DNA from: Haliscomenobacter hydrossis DSM 1100
Lineage (GTDB): Bacteria; Bacteroidota; Bacteroidia; Chitinophagales; Saprospiraceae
NCBI RefSeq assembly: GCF_000212735.1
Contig: NC_015510.1
Location: 3,188,315-3,252,314, forward strand
DNA length: 64,000 nucleotides
Reading direction: 5' to 3'
Within the stretch, counting starts at the first letter, position 1. Every line of letters begins with the position of its first letter. This document shows, one piece after another, positions 46,321 to 48,714 of the stretch. The position numbers were made by a program, and so were the translations under genes. The notes under the pieces are model-generated. The model did not search any database, had not been told where the DNA came from, and was given only the letters and a program-made list of their open reading frames with translations.

Positions 46321-46367
46321 TCTTTTAGGTTCTTTTAGGTTTTAGGGTTTTACGTTTTAGGGTTTTG
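46321..46367. repeat. Direct repeats of TTTTAGG(G/T) upstream of the symporter
   Basis: Four to five copies of TTTTAGG(G/T)TT are strung together immediately upstream of the symporter ATG and overlap the lspA stop. A single-armed relative of the inverted tandem repeats elsewhere in the window. Confidence 0.5.
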
Positions 46368-46974
46368 GGTCAAGCTCGGTATCATCGGTATCATTTGTGG
46401 TTGGTTCTTCTATTTCCTGGGTTTCGTTGTCTGTTTCTTCAAAGGCGGGCGTTTCCACTGCTGCTGAAGGTTCCTGAGCAGAACTGGGTTCAGGATGCTG
46501 TTTTTGAAAAAGAAAAGGAATCATCAGGAATAAACCCAGCATGATGGACATATCGGCCACATTAAAAATCCCAGTGCGCAGGGTGCCGATGCCCATGTTC
46601 ATAAAATCGACGACTTTGCCCTCCATAATGCGGTCGTAAATATTGCTGAGGCCCCCGCCTAAGATAAAACCAAACGCCGCCTGCTGCACCACATGCAAGT
46701 TGTGTGCAGTAAGCACGTGGTAAAAAATGTACAGCAGTACCAAAACCGGCACTACGGCCAGCACCCAATAGCGCAGGGTATCGTTCATGCCTGAACCCAG
46801 ACTCAGAAATGCCCCCGTATTTTCGGCGTAAACCAGCCTAAATACGTCGTTGAGGTAAGATTGCATGGGTTGCTCCTTGAGGGTATTGACCGCCCAAATT
46901 TTGGAGAATCGATCTAAAGCCGTTGCCAACAGGCCGGGAACCAATAGTACGATGAGTCTTTTTTGCCAAATCAT
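46357..46974 (-). CDS. lspA: Lipoprotein signal peptidase (signal peptidase II)
   Basis: 205-residue inner-membrane aspartyl peptidase that removes signal peptides from lipoproteins. Four helices; family blocks ALDRFSKIWAV, VYAENTGAFLSLGSGM, GGGLSNIYDRIMEGKVVDFMNMG and FNVADMSIMLG, with the catalytic Asp residues in YDR and VAD. Beyond the normal end (~155) it has an acidic Glu/Thr/Pro tail of about 45 residues, an extension not needed for the fold. Bacteroidota often keep dksA next to lspA; here a T9SS gene, rpsU and an RNA gene lie between. Confidence 0.95.
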   Translation of the reverse strand: MIWQKRLIVLLVPGLLATALDRFSKIWAVNTLKEQPMQSYLNDVFRLVYAENTGAFLSLGSGMNDTLRYWVLAVVPVLVLLYIFYHVLTAHNLHVVQQAAFGFILGGGLSNIYDRIMEGKVVDFMNMGIGTLRTGIFNVADMSIMLGLFLMIPFLFQKQHPEPSSAQEPSAAVETPAFEETDNETQEIEEPTTNDTDDTELDPKP

Positions 46975-47139: not shown

Positions 47140-47171
47140 TTTGCATTAATGTGGAGATGTTTTTAACTTTG
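47140..47171 (+). promoter_or_regulatory. Strong promoter of the tRNA-like gene
   Basis: TTTG (47140-47143), 20 bp, TAACTTTG (47164-47171): a full Bacteroidota consensus. The start point would be near 47178. Just after it, ATCAAAG (47176-47182) can pair with CTTTGAT (47243-47249), forming a leader stem before the RNA proper. Confidence 0.7.
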
Positions 47172-47256
47172 CTTCATCAAAGCAAGTGAGCGGAGCGATT
47201 TTGGGCAGCAAAGATGCAAAGAATCACTCAAAAATGCAAACTCTTTGATCCATCAT

Positions 47257-47412
47257 TGTGAGGTGATGAAATTTTGGCAGCCATGCCCTCTTGTCTCGGG
47301 GGTAGGGATCACGGAACAAACGTAGCATAGGGCCAGGAAACGACCCAGGGGTTGACCACCATTCTGTGCTATAGCTAACCGCCCTGTGGAGGTTCGAGTC
47401 CTTCCCTCACAG
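47257..47412 (+). tRNA. tRNA-like RNA with an 85-nt variable region
   Basis: A cloverleaf can be drawn. Acceptor stem TGTGAGG (47257-47263) with CCTCACA (47405-47411), 7 perfect pairs, discriminator G47412, no encoded CCA. D stem ATG (47266-47268)/CAT (47282-47284), D loop with the GG pair (47276-47277). Anticodon stem CCCTC (47286-47290)/GGGGG (47298-47302), loop TTGTCTC, so a formal anticodon GUC, but U at position 37 is odd. T arm GGAGG-TTCGAGT-CCTTC (47388-47404), canonical. Between anticodon and T arm lie 85 nt (47303-47387), far more than any normal class II arm; AGGG/CCCT and a 9-bp GTAGCATAG/CTGTGCTAT stem suggest a folded insert. It may be a tRNA with a giant variable arm, a tRNA pseudogene, or another T-armed RNA. 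Confidence 0.55.
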
Positions 47413-47428
47413 CAGAACAACAAACATA

Positions 47429-47470
47429 AAGCCTTGTATGTCAAAATGATGTACAAGGCTTCTGTTTTTT
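47429..47470 (+). terminator. Intrinsic terminator of the tRNA-like gene
   Basis: AAGCCTTGTA (47429-47438) pairs with TACAAGGCTT (47452-47461), followed by CTGTTTTTT. It closes a transcript of about 290 nt that begins at the 47140 promoter. Confidence 0.85.
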
Positions 47471-47586
47471 GGATTCGACTTGTGTGCAACTACCCGCTAA
47501 TGGAAGTCTTAGGGGGCTCTTAATTCCCCAATCCTTTTTTCTATCTTTGCTCCATATCGATTAGCGTTTTTGTAACCCGATCCATC

Positions 47587-48714
47587 ATGAAGCACCTGCT
47601 CCTGTGCATTATTTTTGGTTTGAGCTGGCAAATCAGTCCGGCGCAAATTTTCATCCCCACATCCATGATGCCCCGGGCAGGTGATACCCTTTTGACCGCG
47701 GTTGACAACCTGCCGGCCAACATCCGAAGTATTCTCTCCGGCCGCAACCAGCGCTGGGATTTTGCCATGTTGGAGGCCCCCTATTCGCGCAGTGCAGTGT
47801 GGCGTACGGCCACAAAAGGCAATGCTGCGCAGACGTTTAAAACAGCTGAATTCACTGCTCCGGTAGATGAACATACCGAAGGGTATTATCGTACCCAGGG
47901 CAACGACCTCATCCTGGTGGGTGCGGTAGGTCCGGATCCACTCAACCTGAACCGAAAGTCGGTCATGCGTTACAGTCCAGGTCTTTTAGAACGGCGGTAC
48001 GGTTTGCGCTACGGCGATGCGTTTCAGGCCGATGCCAACCTGGTGCTCACTTTGGGTGAAATTGACATTCCCAGCTGGTTTCGAAAAAAACTCCCGGTTA
48101 GTCCCGATTCAATCCGTTTGCGGGTGAGTTTTGATCGCCAGTACGATGTAGACAGTTATGGTCGGCTCATTGTACCCGGCGGGATTTTTGAAGTATTGCG
48201 GGAAAAACGCATCGAAATTGTTGAAATGCGCCTGGAGGTCAAAGTGGGCCGCCGCCGCTGGCAAGACATCAGTCGATCCATCAAGGACAAAGAACTTTTG
48301 CGCAGCCGCAAAAACATTTCTTACCATTTTTATTCAAATGAAGCTAAAGAACCGATTGCCCGGGTGTGGATGAACGCCAGCGAAAAAAAAGTACTAAAAA
48401 TCGAATTCAAACCCCGCGAGCGAGAAAACATGGTACAAAACCTGGCCAATGTAAAGCCAGACATCTACGTATCGCCCAACCCGGCCATTGCCAGTGTGCG
48501 TTTTGAATTTTACAATTTGCCCCCCGGTACTTACCGGCTTTCTATTTTCAACATCATTGGCCAGGAAGAGTGGAGCAAAATGTACACGATTAATGGGAAT
48601 TATGCCGAGCAGGTGGATATTTCGCAGCTCAAAAAAGGGGCTTATCTGTATAGTTTGAAGGATGAGCGGGGGCGGACTTTGAGTACGAAGCGCTTGATGG
48701 TGATCCGGCCATAA
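47587..48714 (+). CDS. Secreted protein with T9SS type A sorting domain
   Basis: 375-residue exported protein with signal peptide MKHLLLCIIFGLSWQISPAQ. The central ~250 residues show no family I recognise; they alternate beta-like strands with charged loops (LRVSFDRQYDVDSYGRLIVPGGIFEVLREKRIE). The end (~292-375) is a T9SS sorting domain (VSPNPAIASVRFEF, YRLSIFNIIGQEEW, LKKGAYLYSLKDERG). A possible -7 TATCTTTG lies at 47542-47549. It is followed by a 17-bp inverted repeat facing rpsU. Confidence 0.82.
   Translation: MKHLLLCIIFGLSWQISPAQIFIPTSMMPRAGDTLLTAVDNLPANIRSILSGRNQRWDFAMLEAPYSRSAVWRTATKGNAAQTFKTAEFTAPVDEHTEGYYRTQGNDLILVGAVGPDPLNLNRKSVMRYSPGLLERRYGLRYGDAFQADANLVLTLGEIDIPSWFRKKLPVSPDSIRLRVSFDRQYDVDSYGRLIVPGGIFEVLREKRIEIVEMRLEVKVGRRRWQDISRSIKDKELLRSRKNISYHFYSNEAKEPIARVWMNASEKKVLKIEFKPRERENMVQNLANVKPDIYVSPNPAIASVRFEFYNLPPGTYRLSIFNIIGQEEWSKMYTINGNYAEQVDISQLKKGAYLYSLKDERGRTLSTKRLMVIRP

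Follow-up and report, generated by a model that had tools for sequence, protein, structure and literature searches.

The window analyzed here, a stretch of 64 kb covering positions 3188315 to 3252314 of an 8.37-Mb contig, comes from the genome of Haliscomenobacter hydrossis DSM 1100 (8.77 Mb in four contigs). It contains the gene for a tRNA-like RNA of 156 nt, from U1 to the discriminator G73 (47257 to 47412, plus strand), flanked by lspA (46357 to 46974, minus strand; above the Pfam and TIGR00077 cutoffs) and by a gene whose product carries a T9SS sorting tail (47587 to 48714, plus strand). By blastn, this is the only copy in the genome. A 78-amino-acid open frame on the minus strand (47253 to 47489) overlaps the RNA and is taken for chance.

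Predicted transcript signals and leader

Two elements on the plus strand upstream of the gene, TTTG (47140 to 47143) and TAACTTTG (47164 to 47171), are separated by a 20-nt spacer and together form what we take to be a Bacteroidota-type promoter (47140 to 47171, read on the sequence). A scan for sigma-70 promoters gave no sites in the region, so the consensus promoter of the original prediction stands as a promoter-like signal of the Bacteroidota type but not as a sigma-70 promoter. Among 233 stretches upstream of the RNA, each about 160 nt long (196 of them distinct in the last 120 nt), TANNTTTG is present in 171, against a mean of 31 in base shuffles, and is accompanied by a spaced TTG in 122, against a base-shuffle mean of 4. 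Downstream, a terminator-like hairpin (47429 to 47461) is followed by a U-run (the whole element spanning 47429 to 47468, plus strand); the hairpin proposed as an intrinsic terminator does exist, but one was found where 0.7 are expected in the region by chance.

The leader between promoter and RNA (47172 to 47256, plus strand) contains the anticipated stem AUCAAAG/CUUUGAU in both the minimum-free-energy and the centroid predicted folds, and it may be a regulatory leader. By eye it resembles the leaders of two loci from the same genus (GGGCWGCAAARAUGCA). The 296-nt putative transcript has a folding z score of −2.75, and the 156-nt unit alone has one of −0.61, so that single-sequence folding gives the unit no support.

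A cloverleaf with an expanded variable arm

All arms of the proposed cloverleaf can be paired on the plus strand. The acceptor stem, a perfect 7-bp helix as first described, pairs UGUGAGG (47257 to 47263, beginning U1 G2 U3) with CCUCACA (47405 to 47411) at 7 of 7 positions; its 3′ strand with the discriminator (47405 to 47412) carries A72 (47411) and G73 (47412), and CCA is presumably added to the 3′ end afterward. The D arm (47266 to 47284) has a 3-bp stem (47266 to 47268 with 47282 to 47284; 98.8% of alignment cells paired, 2 of 3 pairs changed on both sides) and G18 G19 in its loop. In the anticodon arm (47286 to 47302), the stem (47286 to 47290 with 47298 to 47302; 98.8% paired, 3 of 5 pairs double-changed) closes the loop UUGUCUC (47291 to 47297), which places GUC at 47293 to 47295, U37 at 47296, and C38 at 47297. 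The T arm (47388 to 47404) combines a stem (47388 to 47392 with 47400 to 47404; 100% paired, 2 of 5 pairs double-changed) with the canonical loop UUCGAGU, and TTC[GA]A occurs in the T loops of all 116 distinct sequences counted.

Between the anticodon and T arms lie exactly 85 nt (47303 to 47387), the insert length originally claimed. Two nested stems of 4 and 9 bp had been drawn in it; the 4-bp helix (47304 to 47307 with 47382 to 47385) is borne out, but the rest of the arm consists of a second helix of 3 bp (47312 to 47314 with 47379 to 47381) and, at the apex, a hairpin of about 8 bp (47323 to 47330 with 47364 to 47371). The 4-bp and 3-bp helices of the covariation alignment are 100% and 98.4% paired, with double changes at 6 of their 7 pairs, and the apical hairpin is 91.9% paired with double changes at all 8 pairs. 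A conserved internal loop, AACAAA (47315 to 47320) facing CUAA (47375 to 47378), is a possible protein or ligand site: the strand [GA]A[TC]AAA occurs in 199 of 258 sequences among the matches listed, and CUAA is invariant in 20 of 20. The GGGUUGACCAC stretch of the apical variable arm (47348 to 47359) is kept in some aligned copies and missing from others.

A new structured RNA family conserved in Bacteroidota

ARAGORN called no tRNA or tmRNA anywhere in the window. Searches with Rfam 15 gave no window match at the gathering score, leaving six chance-level matches around the unit (E values of 0.67 to 6.5), so the unit is not assigned to any known unrelated RNA. A tmRNA consists of tRNA-like ends with a large insert, and the RNA shares that outline; unlike tmRNA, it has full D and anticodon arms, and with no tmRNA match from either ARAGORN or Rfam, this candidate was rejected.

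Homologues were found by blastn in 20 of 40 genomes, the window's own included, some with at least two tandem copies. In an alignment of 20 of them, 96.8% of cells are paired and 20 of 35 pairs are changed on both sides, values reached in none of 500 shuffles; none of five measures was reached by any shuffle, and sliding the partners by 1 to 3 columns lowers pairing to 45 to 60%. The 87 matches to the covariance model R1 (83 distinct) yield 97.9% paired cells and 26 of 35 double-changed pairs (0 of 500 shuffles as high), in an alignment that was fitted to the structure. Compensatory changes of this kind were thus present in the homologues, and all seven helices covary. Unconstrained RNAalifold draws another pairing in the D and anticodon region, where its pairs lack double changes and some cells are broken; in the 87-match alignment, the double changes there support the cloverleaf form and not that of RNAalifold. 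The window RNA itself scores 144.6 bits with R1, its sequence being among those on which R1 was trained. The RNA is a new structured RNA family, absent from Rfam 15, and the original suggestion of a noncanonical tRNA or tRNA-like RNA is supported by the covariation together with the conserved letters described below. No such RNA was recognized in the open-license PubMed Central literature, as judged by titles and the starts of abstracts.

The family is conserved in many Bacteroidota, with homologues in several families. Within the order, 69 of 149 genomes, the window's included, have an R1 match above 80 bits, the threshold used here to call a genome RNA positive. No match is listed between 61 and 81 bits, and the next matches, of at most 61 bits, are 84 to 88 nt long and are probably tRNA-Leu. 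At E values of 1e-16 or below, R1 matched 68 genomes in a class-wide set of 395 and 31 in a phylum-wide set of 296 that overlaps it, two genomes of the latter lying outside the class; because the large searches used the stricter filters of Infernal, divergent RNAs may be scored as absent. A pattern scan returned at least 120 stretches, and the carriers among the matches listed, confirmed with the covariance model, include Chitinophaga, Pedobacter, Dyadobacter, Spirosoma, Cyclobacterium, Algoriphagus, Fulvivirga, Neolewinella, and Phaeodactylibacter. Among the matches listed, the unit is 110 to 212 nt long (median, 149 nt; 258 sequences), 4 of 262 distinct sequences having been left out of the letter counts for cut-off ends or a short loop. 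Tandem copies, three to five in a row and about 130 to 280 nt from start to start, occur at loci L087, L221, L117, L101, L133, and L127, and the apical hairpin can vary among the copies of a single locus.

Aspartate identity letters with a U1-A72 pair

The main letter counts rest on 116 distinct sequences that blastn or the covariance model detected without the pattern; the loop letters of 142 pattern-found sequences were not used as evidence because they are partly fixed by the search pattern. U1, G2, U8, G9, C71, A72, and G73 are invariant, as are the U1-A72 and G2-C71 pairs (116 of 116 each), although sequences carrying the conserved letters are likelier to be found by a model trained on them. 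U1-A72 is present in 257 and G73 in 258 of the wider set of 258 sequences among the matches listed. The anticodon loop is nearly as constant at G34 (115 of 116), U35 (116), C36 (116), and C38 (115). Position 33 varies (T in 102, G in 6, C in 5, A in 3), and so does position 37 (T in 109, C in 4, G in 3), where A never occurs. The remark that GUC with U37 is wrong for a normal tRNA-Asp was correct, and U37 is informative: drift at positions 33 and 37 contrasts with the near constancy of the AspRS determinants 34, 35, 36, 38, and 73.

Bacterial aspartate identity is given as G73, G10, G34, U35, C36, and C38, with the G1-C72 pair also helping AspRS, whereas U1-A72 marks a tRNA for amidation by the tRNA-dependent amidotransferases and G1-C72 and U20a keep Asp-tRNA-Asp from being amidated, according to PMC9976931. 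The RNA carries G73, G34, U35, C36, and C38 but mostly lacks G10 (G in 12 of 116, A in 90, T in 14), and it has U1-A72 in all 116 sequences instead of the G1-C72 of bacterial tRNA-Asp. The letters of a GatCAB substrate are likewise present: besides U1-A72 there is no U20a (in our own numbering), since 113 of 116 sequences have GGCA in the D loop. The tRNA-Asn anticodon GUU is absent, with GUC in 115 of 116. The RNA thus resembles tRNA-Asp in GUC, C38, G73, and the core letters of the L shape and differs from it in U1-A72, the lack of A37, the mostly missing G10, and the expanded variable arm. With AspRS letters and U1-A72 together, it combines two letter sets that tRNA-Asp and tRNA-Asn keep apart, a pattern that would be expected for recognition by AspRS without decoding.

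Ordinary tRNAs near the RNA offer a comparison. ARAGORN found 16 in the loci examined, among them one tRNA-Asp and one tRNA-Asn. The tRNA-Asp, at a Dyadobacter locus that also carries the RNA (L180), is normal, with G1-C72 and A37. The tRNA-Asn lies on a Saprospiraceae MAG contig (L255) together with a copy of the RNA that is cut by the contig end; it has G1-C72 and therefore should not be a GatCAB substrate.

An AsnC-like regulator beside the RNA

Protein clustering of the flanking genes revealed one recurrent family, an Lrp/AsnC regulator at 33 of 55 loci, always divergent and just upstream; the next families reach 4 of 55 loci each. In a profile search, 33 of 54 hand-chosen loci had an AsnC-like gene in the divergent upstream position, as did 78 of the 107 pattern-found loci with room for it among the matches listed, 13 more of the at least 120 pattern-found loci being cut off too short to show the site. 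The distance from this gene to the RNA is 121 to 301 bp (median, 156 bp). No AsnC gene adjoins the window's own copy, nor 21 of the 54 hand-chosen and 29 of the 107 pattern-found loci listed, and at loci without an adjacent AsnC no profile hit above 60 bits occurred anywhere in the stretch. Families in a fixed place at these loci reach at most 7 loci (7 of 83) and look like local synteny. Locus counts are not independent, because the 54 context loci include several per genome and some pattern-found contigs belong to the same genomes (for example, L169 and G010:C4).

The best PDB match of the neighbor is Escherichia coli AsnC (2cg4, 133 bits), followed by one of 84 bits, with Lrp at 44. In the three neighbors tested, the NCBIfam AsnC model scores 161, 180, and 166 bits, below its cutoff of 227 but ahead of every other family by at least 87 bits, and all three score above the cutoff of Pfam AsnC_trans_reg. 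The E. coli genes asnC and asnA point away from each other across 151 bp, and AsnC activates asnA, asparagine lowering the activation, according to PMC8707732. The arrangement in Bacteroidota is alike in its divergent orientation, its spacing of about 150 bp, and its AsnC-like regulator; it is unlike that of E. coli in having an RNA gene in place of asparagine synthetase A and, in the window, in lacking an adjacent AsnC.

Co-occurrence with gatB

We judged the presence of GatCAB by gatB alone (TIGR00133). Overall, gatB is present in 106 of 109 RNA-positive genomes versus 65 of 120 RNA-negative ones, and in the order set, in 66 of 69 versus 48 of 80. Among genomes with GlnRS that are at least 90% complete, the counts are 46 of 46 versus 4 of 22 (Fisher P = 5.7e-13, kinship ignored, a plain P value that overstates the association because the genomes are related). 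Hypergeometric P values calculated within families multiply to 2e-7, or to 1.3e-4 when each genus contributes one genome per state. GatCAB is required for Gln-tRNA where GlnRS is absent, and in genomes of that kind there is no association (17 of 18 versus 38 of 45). Since AsnRS is present in 67 of 69 RNA-positive genomes, GatCAB is not needed for Asn-tRNA there; the window's genome has gatB, AsnRS, and GlnRS.

In the family of the window's genome, gatB is present in 14 of 14 RNA-positive genomes and missing from 5 of 5 RNA-negative ones, and a second, hand-chosen set of 80 genomes, counted irrespective of GlnRS, gives 40 of 40 versus 17 of 40. One genus (g116) shows both states, with RNA and gatB in G356 and neither in G186, and two others (g153, with G228 and G355; g124, with G194 and G272) each hold an RNA-negative genome with gatB beside an RNA-positive one. 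Exceptions are three RNA-positive genomes without gatB, namely G115 (86% complete), G135 (85%), and G138 (99%), and four RNA-negative genomes at least 90% complete with both gatB and GlnRS (G035, G099, G117, and G163). Matches to gatB under the family cutoff occur in G062, G087, and G149, all RNA negative. The neighborhoods of gatB at 20 loci show no obvious partner, the commonest neighbor family occurring at 9; an alanyl-tRNA-synthetase-like protein was seen by eye at 6. Two gatB matches (G099:C51:4107-5486 and G182:C19:17848-19227) fall within open frames of 1110 and 1120 amino acids, which suggests fused GatB proteins.

Asparagine synthetases do not mark RNA-positive genomes

Canonical AsnB (NF006949) was detected in 2 of 149 genomes and AsnA in 10. 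The AsnB-like family TIGR01536 occurs in 124 of 149, without a difference between RNA-positive (56 of 69) and RNA-negative (68 of 80) genomes, some absences in the genome lists, such as five of the 25 for TIGR01536, being inferred from a genome not being among the positives. Members of TIGR01536 may serve other amidations, so these counts neither prove nor exclude a biosynthetic role. Genomes with neither AsnA nor an AsnB-like gene are not clearly commoner among RNA-positive ones (13 of 69, ten of them at least 90% complete, versus 12 of 80). Missing asparagine synthetases were therefore rejected as a mark of RNA-positive genomes: TIGR01536, NF006949, and AsnA do not separate the two groups. 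The window's genome has three TIGR01536 matches and, at the thresholds used, no AsnA and no canonical AsnB. Asparagine may be made another way, because AsnB-like genes persist in most RNA-positive genomes, the window's included; moreover, PMC4206432 reports a U1-A72 tRNA-Asn from a set of genera with Bacteroidetes among them, in which the amidation carrier may thus be tRNA-Asn itself.

Proposed function and alternatives

We regard it as fairly probable that the RNA is a nondecoding tRNA mimic, a dedicated carrier for asparagine synthesis via AspRS and GatCAB, a function supported by three computational lines: the identity letters, the AsnC adjacency, and the gatB co-occurrence. The RNA would be transcribed from the Bacteroidota-type promoter and then trimmed, as its sequence and the enrichment of promoter-like signals upstream suggest. 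Ordinary AspRS would charge it with aspartate, because it bears G73, GUC, and C38. GatCAB would then amidate Asp-RNA to Asn-RNA, a step suggested by the co-occurrence and by U1-A72, unlike the G1-C72 of normal tRNA-Asp. The charged RNA would be kept out of decoding, to judge from the complete lack of A37 in the sequences counted, the loss of U33 in a minority, and the greatly enlarged variable arm. Asparagine would leave the RNA as the free amino acid or be passed on, after which tRNA-Asn would be charged by AsnRS; the genes flanking the RNA suggest no release route, and none is known. In many relatives, but not at the window's locus, the arrangement of the genes suggests that AsnC would exert control as it does over asnA in E. 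coli.

Charging of aspartate on a U1-A72 tRNA-Asn and its amidation by GatCAB, in cells that have AsnRS and GlnRS, is described in PMC4206432. The proposed pathway resembles such tRNA-dependent asparagine synthesis (Deinococcus, Thermus, and Bdellovibrio) in that aspartate would be charged on a U1-A72 RNA and then amidated by GatCAB. It differs in its carrier, which there is the decoding tRNA-Asn charged by a nondiscriminating AspRS and here is a separate RNA; because this RNA carries the aspartate anticodon, an ordinary AspRS would do.

A bolder version, to which we give about an even chance, is that a tRNA has gone from translation altogether and become an RNA coenzyme, which together with AspRS and GatCAB would act as asparagine synthetase in much of the Bacteroidota. 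It would stand under an asparagine-sensing regulator, beside asnC where E. coli has asnA, and its enlarged variable arm would keep the RNA away from the ribosome or serve release or feedback. If true, this would be, as far as the literature searched extends, the first example of an RNA devoted to the synthesis of a free amino acid, and it would separate the chemistry of amino acids made on tRNA from decoding. It would also explain why GatCAB is kept in many Bacteroidota that have both AsnRS and GlnRS and where asparagine comes from in genomes without a recognized asparagine synthetase.

The original prediction had also considered a specialized regulator. The RNA could be a regulatory tRNA mimic whose charging, and possibly amidation, serves only to gauge aspartate or asparagine and which acts on AsnC, AspRS, or GatCAB; the adjacency of AsnC, the conserved internal loop of the variable arm, and the persistence of AsnB-like genes in RNA-positive genomes would allow this. 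We consider it unlikely, because gatB is nearly obligate in genomes for which no other requirement for GatCAB is known, AsnC is missing beside many copies, and the tandem copies and promoter-like sequences suggest an RNA made in bulk. Taken together, the identity letters, the AsnC neighbor, and the gatB co-occurrence argue for an AspRS and GatCAB substrate rather than a specialized regulator.

Dedicated tRNAs that serve nonribosomal acceptors are known in other bacteria, and the nondecoding features of the RNA would suit a donor of aspartate or asparagine to a peptide, a lipid, the cell wall, or a protein N terminus via an aminoacyl-tRNA transferase. Besides AsnC, no family adjoins the RNA at more than a few loci (4 of 55 for the next family, 7 of 83 in a fixed place), and we rate this reading as less likely still.

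The reading as a class II tRNA, either a seryl-type allo-tRNA or a tRNA-Leu derivative, has in its favor the long variable arm, shared with class II tRNAs, tRNA-Sec, and allo-tRNAs, as well as G73, a D arm that we take to resemble that of tRNA-Leu, and the scores of up to 61 bits that the covariance model gives to the 84- to 88-nt matches thought to be tRNA-Leu. According to PMC7609411, allo-tRNAs can also carry the anticodon GUC. The details of the RNA make this reading very improbable: neither the serine nor the leucine identity set is present, A72 instead of C72 and the mostly U11-A24 pair being contrary to the bacterial serine set and G73 to the leucine A73. The acceptor and T stems are of 7 and 5 bp, unlike the 8/4 or 9/3 (13-bp) domain of allo-tRNAs and tRNA-Sec. 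Canonical class II tRNAs have a variable region of about 10 to 24 nt, against 85 nt in the window, where ARAGORN makes no call, and the variable arm here is built of a pair of short helices and a conserved internal loop, mostly with a further hairpin.

An unusual translational tRNA-Asp would account for the GUC anticodon and the canonical T and D loops, but it is scarcely credible with U33 missing in 14 of 116 sequences, A37 in none, the large insert, U1-A72 throughout, and a normal tRNA-Asp (G1-C72, A37) at the RNA-bearing Dyadobacter locus. A relic or pseudogene, also entertained in the original prediction, has nothing beyond the odd form of the RNA to recommend it and a probability near nil, being ruled out by conservation and covariation, with letters that hardly vary over several families and at least one further class.
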